64,000 nt of DNA from Halobaculum limi (lineage in GTDB: Archaea > Halobacteriota > Halobacteria > Halobacteriales > Haloferacaceae), in contig NZ_CP120468.1 in the NCBI RefSeq assembly GCF_029490015.1, positions 310,001-374,000 of the forward strand, read 5' to 3'. The translations under genes and the position numbers were made by a program. Positions 31,842-34,358 of the stretch are shown here, piece by piece. A model generated the notes under the pieces. It saw only the letters and a list, made by a program, of their open reading frames with translations, was not told the origin of the DNA and made no database searches. Position 1 is the first letter of the stretch; each line of letters begins with the position of its first letter.

Positions 31842-34358
31842 ATGGCCGAGGCCGCCGAGGAGACCGAGTACGTCGACCACCCGCTGCTGGTACCGGGGTT
31901 CATCGAGAACCGTCGCTACCAGACCGAACTCGCGGCGACCGCCCGCGAGGGGAACACGCTCGTCTGTCTGCCGACCGGCCTCGGGAAGACCACCGTCTCG
32001 CTGCTCGTCACCGCCCACCGCCTGTACGAGGTCGGCGGGAAGTCGCTGTTTCTCGCACCGACGAAACCGCTGGTGCAACAGCACGCCGACTTCTACCGGG
32101 AGGCGCTCGACATCGCCGACGAGGAAATCGTCGTGTTCACCGGCGAGGTGCGACCCGACGACCGCGCCGAATTGTGGGAGAGCGCCAGCATCGTCATCGC
32201 GACGCCGCAAGTCGTCGAGAACGACCTCGTCGGCAACCGCATCTCCCTGGCAGACGTGACGCATCTCACCTTCGACGAGTGCCACCGTGCGAGCGGCGAC
32301 TACGCGTACGTCTACATCGCCGAGCGGTACCACGCCGACGCCGAACAGCCGTTGGTGACGGGGATGTCCGCCTCCCCCGGCGGCGACCGCGAGGAGATAA
32401 TGGACGTGTGCGAGAACCTCGGCATCGACGAGGTAGAGGTGATGACCGAGGAGGACGCCGACGTGGCGGCGTACACCCACGACACCGACGTCCAGTGGGA
32501 GCGCATCGACCTGCCCGACCCGATCATCGAGATTCGCGACGCCCTCAACGAGGTGATCCGTGACCGACTGGAACACCTGAAGTCGCTCGGCGTCTCGAAG
32601 ACGACCCAACCGAACGTCTCCCAGAAGGACCTCAATCGGATGCGCGGGCAGTTGCAACAGATGATGGACAACGGCAAGTCGGACGCGTACAAGGGGATGT
32701 CCGTCCACGCGGAGGTGATGAAACTCCGCCGCGCCGTCGAACTCGTCGAGACGCAGAGCGTCGAGGCGCTCCGGCGCTACTTCGAGCGCCAGCGCAACGC
32801 CGCCCGGTCGTCGGGCGCGTCGAAGGCGAGTCAGCGTCTCGTCTCCGAACCGAAGGTGCGCGAGGCGATGCGCAAGACGGAGAACTTCGACGACCTCCAC
32901 CCGAAGTTCCGACGGACGCGCGTCCTCCTCGCGCAGACGCTCGGCATCGGCGGCGGCGAACGCGTCATCGTGTTCACCGAGTCGCGCGATACCGCCGAGG
33001 CGCTGACGGAGTTCCTCTCGACCTCCTTCGACACCCGCCGCTTCGTCGGCCAGGGGGACAAGGAAGGGTCGGATGGGATGACCCAAAAGGAGCAACAGGA
33101 GACGCTCGACGCCTTCCGCGCCGGAGAGTTCGAGGTGCTCGTCTCCACGAGCGTCGCCGAGGAGGGCCTAGACGTGCCCGAGGTGGATCTCGTTCTCTTC
33201 TTCGAGCCAGTTCCCACCGCGATCCGGTCCATCCAGCGGAAGGGCCGGACCGGGCGACAGGACGAGGGCGCGGTCGTCGTCCTCCTCGCGAACGACACGC
33301 GCGACGAGGCGTTCTTCTGGATCTCGCGGCGGCGCGAGAAGGAGATGGAGCAGGAACTGCGGAAACTGAAGGGCGTCGCCGACGAGTTGTCGGCGGAACT
33401 CGACGACGACCAGGCGGGACTGGCGGACTTCGATAGTGACGGCAAGAGTGACACGACAGTCGACGCTGACGGCTCCGGCGACAACGCGGTCGCGAACGGC
33501 GAGACGACGGGGTCTGCGGACGCGAGCGCCGAGACACCGACGGCCGACCGCGACGCCAACGACGGACAGCCAGGCTTGACCGACTTCGACACCGGCAGCG
33601 AGGACGGTGACGGCGACGCGGACGCGAGCGATGACGAGGACGCAGATACTGCCACCGACGACGACTCAGACGACGGCGTCGTCGCGAAGGCGGGAACCGA
33701 TACCGAGGGCGTCGAAATCGTCATCGACCAGCGCGAACTCGACTCGACTATCGCCCGCGACCTCTCCACGCGCGAGGGGATCACCACCCGCTTAGAGACG
33801 CTCGCAGTCGGCGACTACGTCCTCTCCGACCGCGTCGCCGTCGAGCGGAAATCCGTGGCAGACTTCCTCGACACGCTCGTCGGCGGCGACCGTTCGATGT
33901 TCGAGCAGGTTGGCGACACCGCCCGTGCGTACGCCCGACCTGTCGTGATCATCGAGGGCGAGGACTTGTACGGCGAGCGCAACGTCCACCCGAACGCCAT
34001 CCGTGGGGCACTGGCGTCGCTCGCGATCGACTTCGACGCAAGCGTCCTGCGAACCGCGAACGAGTCGGAGACGGCCGATATGCTGGAGACCATCGCCCGC
34101 CGCGAACAGGAGGAACACGACCGCGAGGTGTCCGCCCACGGCGAGAAGGGCGCGAAGACGCTCGCGGAGCAACAGGAGTACGTCGTCTCCTCTATCGGCG
34201 ACATCGGCCCTGTCACCGCGCGGGCGCTCCTCGACCACTTCGGCACCGTCGAGGCCGTGATGACCGCCCGTGAGGAGGACTTGCTAGAGGTCAGCGGCGT
34301 CGGACAGGTGACCGCCGACCGCATCCGCGAAGTCGTCGGCAGCGACTACCCGGAGTAG
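31842..34358 (+). CDS. hef: Hef: SF2 helicase fused to XPF/ERCC4 nuclease
   Basis: 838 residues. N-terminal SF2 helicase: Walker A LPTGLGKTT (43-51), FDECH box, SASPGG, and QRKGRTGR motif VI. A 100-residue acidic linker follows, with two PIP-like boxes (524-531, 576-583). The C-terminal ERCC4 nuclease carries GDYVLSDRVAVERKSVADF (GDxnERKxxxD) and tandem helix-hairpin-helix (IGPVTARALLDHFG, VSGVGQVTADRI). Hef processes stalled forks and branched DNA. The ATG gives MAEAAEETEYVDHPLL. Confidence 0.97.
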   Translation: MAEAAEETEYVDHPLLVPGFIENRRYQTELAATAREGNTLVCLPTGLGKTTVSLLVTAHRLYEVGGKSLFLAPTKPLVQQHADFYREALDIADEEIVVFTGEVRPDDRAELWESASIVIATPQVVENDLVGNRISLADVTHLTFDECHRASGDYAYVYIAERYHADAEQPLVTGMSASPGGDREEIMDVCENLGIDEVEVMTEEDADVAAYTHDTDVQWERIDLPDPIIEIRDALNEVIRDRLEHLKSLGVSKTTQPNVSQKDLNRMRGQLQQMMDNGKSDAYKGMSVHAEVMKLRRAVELVETQSVEALRRYFERQRNAARSSGASKASQRLVSEPKVREAMRKTENFDDLHPKFRRTRVLLAQTLGIGGGERVIVFTESRDTAEALTEFLSTSFDTRRFVGQGDKEGSDGMTQKEQQETLDAFRAGEFEVLVSTSVAEEGLDVPEVDLVLFFEPVPTAIRSIQRKGRTGRQDEGAVVVLLANDTRDEAFFWISRRREKEMEQELRKLKGVADELSAELDDDQAGLADFDSDGKSDTTVDADGSGDNAVANGETTGSADASAETPTADRDANDGQPGLTDFDTGSEDGDGDADASDDEDADTATDDDSDDGVVAKAGTDTEGVEIVIDQRELDSTIARDLSTREGITTRLETLAVGDYVLSDRVAVERKSVADFLDTLVGGDRSMFEQVGDTARAYARPVVIIEGEDLYGERNVHPNAIRGALASLAIDFDASVLRTANESETADMLETIARREQEEHDREVSAHGEKGAKTLAEQQEYVVSSIGDIGPVTARALLDHFGTVEAVMTAREEDLLEVSGVGQVTADRIREVVGSDYPE

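Follow-up and report, generated by a model that had tools for sequence, protein, structure and literature searches.

The open reading frame at positions 31842..34358 on the plus strand of the window (i.e., the whole 64,000-nucleotide stretch of DNA analyzed here) encodes a protein of 838 amino acids that is a genuine Hef, a helicase-nuclease of the FANCM/XPF type. This is evident from its translation, from its Pfam domains (DEAD, Helicase_C, a helical bundle representing the helical insert, ERCC4, and HhH), and from its closest solved relatives, 1wp9 for the helicase part and 1j22 for the nuclease part. Namely, an SF2 helicase with a helical insert at about residues 20-503 (31899..33350), as delimited by a phmmer match to 1wp9 over these residues, is followed by a linker of acidic composition with 28% Asp at residues 512-623 (33375..33710), an ERCC4 nuclease domain at residues 628-750 (33723..34091; PF02732, E value of 2e-30), and a helix-hairpin-helix region at residues 783-830 (34188..34331; PF14520), all on the plus strand. 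Long open reading frames also run antisense to hef, for example at 32831-33787 on the minus strand of the window, and seem to result from the GC-rich coding rather than to be genes. The choice of how to deal with a stalled replication fork lies with the Hef/FANCM proteins.

The linker carries two short motifs on the plus strand: QAGLADFD at residues 524-531 (33411-33434), hereafter box 1, and QPGLTDFD at residues 576-583 (33567-33590), hereafter box 2. In a preliminary description of this DNA, these had been read as two PCNA-binding-like boxes, 52 residues apart and with a common GLxDFD ending, in an acidic linker between helicase and nuclease. Indeed, their positions are exact to the base, the distance of 52 residues is right when measured between the first residues of the boxes (F7 of box 1 and Q1 of box 2 being separated by 45 residues), the linker is acidic as given above, and the GLxDFD ending is present, being a lineage-specific feature in that box 1 is usually QQxLxxF elsewhere. 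Both boxes have Gln at position 1, Leu, Ile, or Met at position 4, and an aromatic residue at position 7, which is the haloarchaeal QxxLxxFx form of a PIP (PCNA-interacting) motif. The second aromatic residue of the classical QxxhxxaA form is absent at position 8, where both boxes have Asp, and we have hence classed them under the haloarchaeal form only. When the structure of Hef was predicted by AlphaFold2 with 36 orthologues, residues 524-620, and thus both boxes, had a pLDDT of <50 and are predicted to be disordered. A helix at residues 487-523 closes the helicase and ends exactly at box 1 in the model. As for the 3-10 turn with which a PIP box plugs the pocket beneath the connector loop, a one-turn helix at residues 525-528 was predicted within box 1 but none within box 2 (very low confidence, Hef being modeled without PCNA). 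As modeled, therefore, box 1 would cap the helicase, directly at the end of its closing helix, while box 2 would be free in the middle of the tether.

The form of the two boxes is identical to that in known PCNA clients. In 14 haloarchaeal genomes, RFC-L ends with QSGLSDFM, QAGLTDF-stop, QTGLGDFT, and similar sequences, and QxGLxDF is the usual RFC-L form; the C-termini of the other clients are QTGLGSFM in PolB, QTGLDDWT in Fen1, and QSSLADFL or QATLSDF-stop in NreA. These client boxes share with those of Hef the pattern QxxLxx[FW]x, frequent Gly at position 3 and Asp or Ser at position 6, and a free position 8; unlike the Hef pair, which is internal and lies between folded domains, they are single (except that PolB has a further, N-terminal candidate) and located at or near protein ends. 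The PIP box of Haloferax volcanii NreA, which is of the same form, has been proven genetically to be required for the NreA function (PMC4929162). In the haloarchaeal clients, furthermore, position 8 is rarely aromatic and some of the boxes end at F7; Asp at this position is therefore no formal objection to the Hef boxes. It would nonetheless count to some extent against a PIP reading by analogy with PolY, in which a modeled box with Asp at position 8 was predicted to make an unfavorable contact with Met46 (PMC2737543). When we scanned all 21,015 heptamers of the window proteins with a profile built from 52 boxes of RFC-L, PolB, Fen1, and NreA (Hef being excluded), box 1 ranked first (17.3 bits) and box 2 second (14.6 bits), followed by a heptamer with 13.4 bits. 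Also, the 3.48-Mb genome was searched in six frames with DNA patterns for QxGLxDF alone, for which a composition like that of the window predicts about 0.5 occurrences per million residues. Four sites were found, all of them in frame and in three replication/repair proteins. Two of them are the Hef boxes, one forms the very end of RFC-L (...EEDDGQSGLSDFM-stop), and one is at the start of PolB (MSDSQAGLGDFG). Given that the reversed pattern produced three matches in the same DNA, it is the location of the QxGLxDF matches and not their number that tells.

We then compared 136 Hef proteins from 17 families of Halobacteriales and 46 from the rest of the phylum, defining a strict box as Q..[LIMV]..[FY] and a relaxed box as the same pattern with Q dropped. 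At least one strict box was present in all of the 136 Halobacteriales proteins, two strict boxes in 77, and two relaxed boxes in 121; box 1 matched strictly in about 125, and in the 11 proteins where it is degenerate or missing, the remaining box is always strict. Such retention of at least one strict box suggests that the boxes are redundant, at least as far as sequences of lineages that are not independent of each other can indicate. Close relatives thus keep the boxes, whose absence there had been named in advance as an outcome that would speak against them, and this deep conservation together with the grammar shared with RFC-L, PolB, Fen1, and NreA lends strong support to their PCNA-binding-like character. 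Elsewhere in the phylum, one strict box was found in 32 of the 46 proteins and two in none; the Hefs of one family there have the canonical QKSLQDFF/QKKLQDFF. In two families represented by loci L222 (family f28) and L227 (family f31), Hef is split, and the helicase reading frame stops exactly after a PIP-like box (...QKTLGEF-stop and ...QKQLVDF-stop), with the nuclease following in the same frame after TAA in L227. PIP boxes are classically located at the end of a protein, the position that the boxes have in these split helicases.

As for the partner, a single PCNA match was found in the genome. It is 84% identical to PCNA of H. volcanii (3hi8/3ifv), shares the pocket residues M46 and M239 with it, differs from it at a single residue of the connector loop (residues 109-129), and is expected to form a homotrimer with three equal pockets. 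The earlier statement that Hef works with PCNA agrees with published binding in Thermococcus kodakarensis, Pyrococcus abyssi, and Thermoplasma acidophilum; for H. volcanii, the same review notes a PIP box in Hef and describes the binding to PCNA as yet to be shown (PMC7776575). In T. kodakarensis, the PCNA contact has been mapped to a disordered region between helicase and nuclease (PMC7776575, PMC5717133); a second PIP box in that linker is unmentioned in the searchable literature, and the Hefs examined from outside Halobacteriales have one strict box at most. No report of a two-box Hef linker was found in the searchable literature, which did not cover the primary paper on the T. kodakarensis linker. 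While it is hence already known that archaeal Hef binds PCNA and that Hef of H. volcanii has one PIP box, the conserved two-box linker would appear to be new.

Because of the genome-wide sites, the ranks in the profile scan, and the conservation, the identity of the boxes as PIP motifs is very probable. We thus consider, with a probability of about 0.78, that both boxes are PIP motifs of the QxxLxxFx type found in haloarchaea and that they sit on a tether, predicted to be disordered, which joins the helicase to the nuclease.

An alternative is that PCNA is bound by box 1 only and that box 2 serves another partner, such as the RecJ-like nuclease HAN or a protein with a similar groove, its likeness to a PIP box being partly convergent. 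Among the 121 proteins of the two-box set, Q1 of box 1 is kept in 119, at a nearly constant distance from the helicase, while Q1 of box 2 is kept in only 79; G3 (110 proteins) and L4 (117) are nearly fixed in box 2 only, where F7 is found in 116. With Q lost in 42 of the 121, box 2 may be weaker in these proteins or indeed serve another partner, and the Hef linker of Thermococcus is known to bind the nuclease HAN as well as PCNA, the two being mutually exclusive (PMC7776575). Nevertheless, box 2 of the protein studied here fits the RFC-L/PolB form, of which QxGLxDF is the usual haloarchaeal representative in RFC-L, and the remaining box is strict in each of the 11 Hefs with a degenerate or absent box 1. 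A missing Q is also known in PIP boxes, e.g., in the cPIP of PolD (PMC7101311). We therefore regard a different partner for box 2 as unlikely.

It had also been proposed in the preliminary description that the two boxes could bind two subunits of the PCNA ring; in such an arrangement, neighboring subunits of one ring would be engaged at once and Hef would thereby be fixed to the clamp. Both boxes match the PIP profile well, and given that neighboring PCNA pockets are roughly 50-60 Å apart, the 45-residue disordered gap, which stretches to ~160 Å, would be ample; the proposal thus stands as a geometrical possibility in this protein. As a conserved function, however, it is disfavored. The gap between the boxes ranges from 6 to 88 residues across the two-box Hefs of Halobacteriales, by which any fixed spacing or geometry of the pair is ruled out, and gaps of 6-10 residues reach ~40 Å at most, hardly enough for two pockets of one ring. 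In all of the nine Hefs with a gap of ≤12 residues, furthermore, box 2 has lost its Q; the median gap is 24 residues in Q-less versus 34 in Q-bearing Hefs (Mann-Whitney p of 4e-5, uncorrected for kinship). With the gap so variable and box 2 often degenerate, there is no conserved need for bridging one ring. PolD (DP2 of Pyrococcus, with iPIP and cPIP), the best studied archaeal client that has two PIP boxes as Hef does, uses them in a mutually exclusive manner, and one of the two lacks the consensus Q; its boxes, of which one is a loop within a folded domain and the other a C-terminal tail, address one pocket, while those of Hef are both in one linker (PMC7101311). Also, Hef of H. volcanii is an elongated homodimer (PMC3905845), and in a Hef dimer, four boxes are available to three pockets, which makes pairing within one chain unnecessary. 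Simultaneous engagement of two subunits is accordingly improbable in our estimate.

Finally, short motifs in disordered regions commonly arise by chance, and the reversed pattern matched the genomic DNA almost as often, but an origin of the boxes as chance or low-complexity by-products of the acidic linker is excluded for practical purposes by their retention in all 136 orthologues, by the aromatic residues of the linkers in the two-box set, 257 of 273 of which are inside boxes, and by shuffling. Indeed, among 200,000 shuffles of the Hef linker, none had two Q..[LIM]..[FY] boxes and 0.1% had at least one; in composition shuffles of the first 110 linkers, a box occurred in 0.3 linkers on average against 110 observed, and two boxes never against 66 observed.

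With both boxes taken as PIP motifs, the sequences would predict that Hef binds PCNA through its linker, with an effect on fork repair. Box 1, capping the last helix of the helicase, would hold the helicase beside the clamp, while box 2, free in the tether, would lie some distance toward the nuclease. The homotrimeric clamp having three equivalent pockets, each of them could accept either box at a stalled fork, and two boxes per chain in a homodimer such as that shown for H. volcanii would raise the local concentration and allow handover between positions. Docking might then be redundant or alternating and aided by avidity, and this is likelier than one fixed bridge between two subunits. More speculatively, and with even less confidence than for the alternatives on partner and bridging above, haloarchaeal Hef might have evolved its two-PIP linker such that one Hef can change from one clamp position to another, or bridge them, and thereby choose between fork remodeling (by the helicase, through box 1) and cleavage (by the nuclease, through box 2), with lineages tuning the choice by the number and spacing of the boxes. 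The two boxes provide the exact residues to be mutated for studying Hef recruitment to the fork in genetically tractable haloarchaea. The natural variants, i.e., those with one or two boxes, short or long gaps, a Q-less box 2, or a split helicase that ends at the box, are likewise at hand for studying the need of a clamp client for several docking motifs.

Regarding the origin of the second box, a Hef tree based on helicase and nuclease columns (the linker being excluded) placed Halobacteriales in one clade, the earliest branches of which are one-box. Parsimony on the box number required seven changes, with one-box families basal within the order. The single box resembles box 1 in families f9 and f11 (QRSLGEFD) and box 2 in families f2 and f15 (QPTLTDFT and QPALDAFD). 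A simple story in which the second box was gained once and late is thus rejected; since the single boxes of early branches match different boxes, two boxes at the base followed by reciprocal losses are an equally good account. A duplication at the DNA level was also considered as the source of the pair and rejected: no repeat or inverted repeat extends over the boxes, whose coding DNA is identical at 17 of 24 bases, and in the two nearest relatives, the box 2 peptide is identical but its synonymous codons differ, i.e., close relatives alter the codons while the peptide stays. In some Hef linkers of family f4 (L066 and L248), degenerate GGDETGGS-type tandem repeats are found both in the gap separating the boxes and beyond them, which shows that the spacer lengthens by repeat expansion.

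Several observations were made on other proteins in the course of these comparisons. A second protein of the XPG/Fen1 type in the same genome (L164, G000:C1:3038567-3038806) has a C-terminus without a PIP box. In the tail of RFC-L (L040/L122), the C-terminal PIP box, DDGQSGLSDFM, is preceded by a degenerate second copy, DDGQTSLADAGG. PolB (L041/L136) likewise carries a pair of PIP-like boxes: besides the known QTGLGSFM at the C-terminus, there is MSDSQAGLGDFG at the N-terminus (G000:C1:2610444-2610464, minus strand). Of the 14 haloarchaeal PolB loci that were examined, 9 have a strict Q..[LIMV]..[FYW] match near the N-terminus, and Q-less variants such as MSNTDLSQF and STTLTDF are present in others of these loci.
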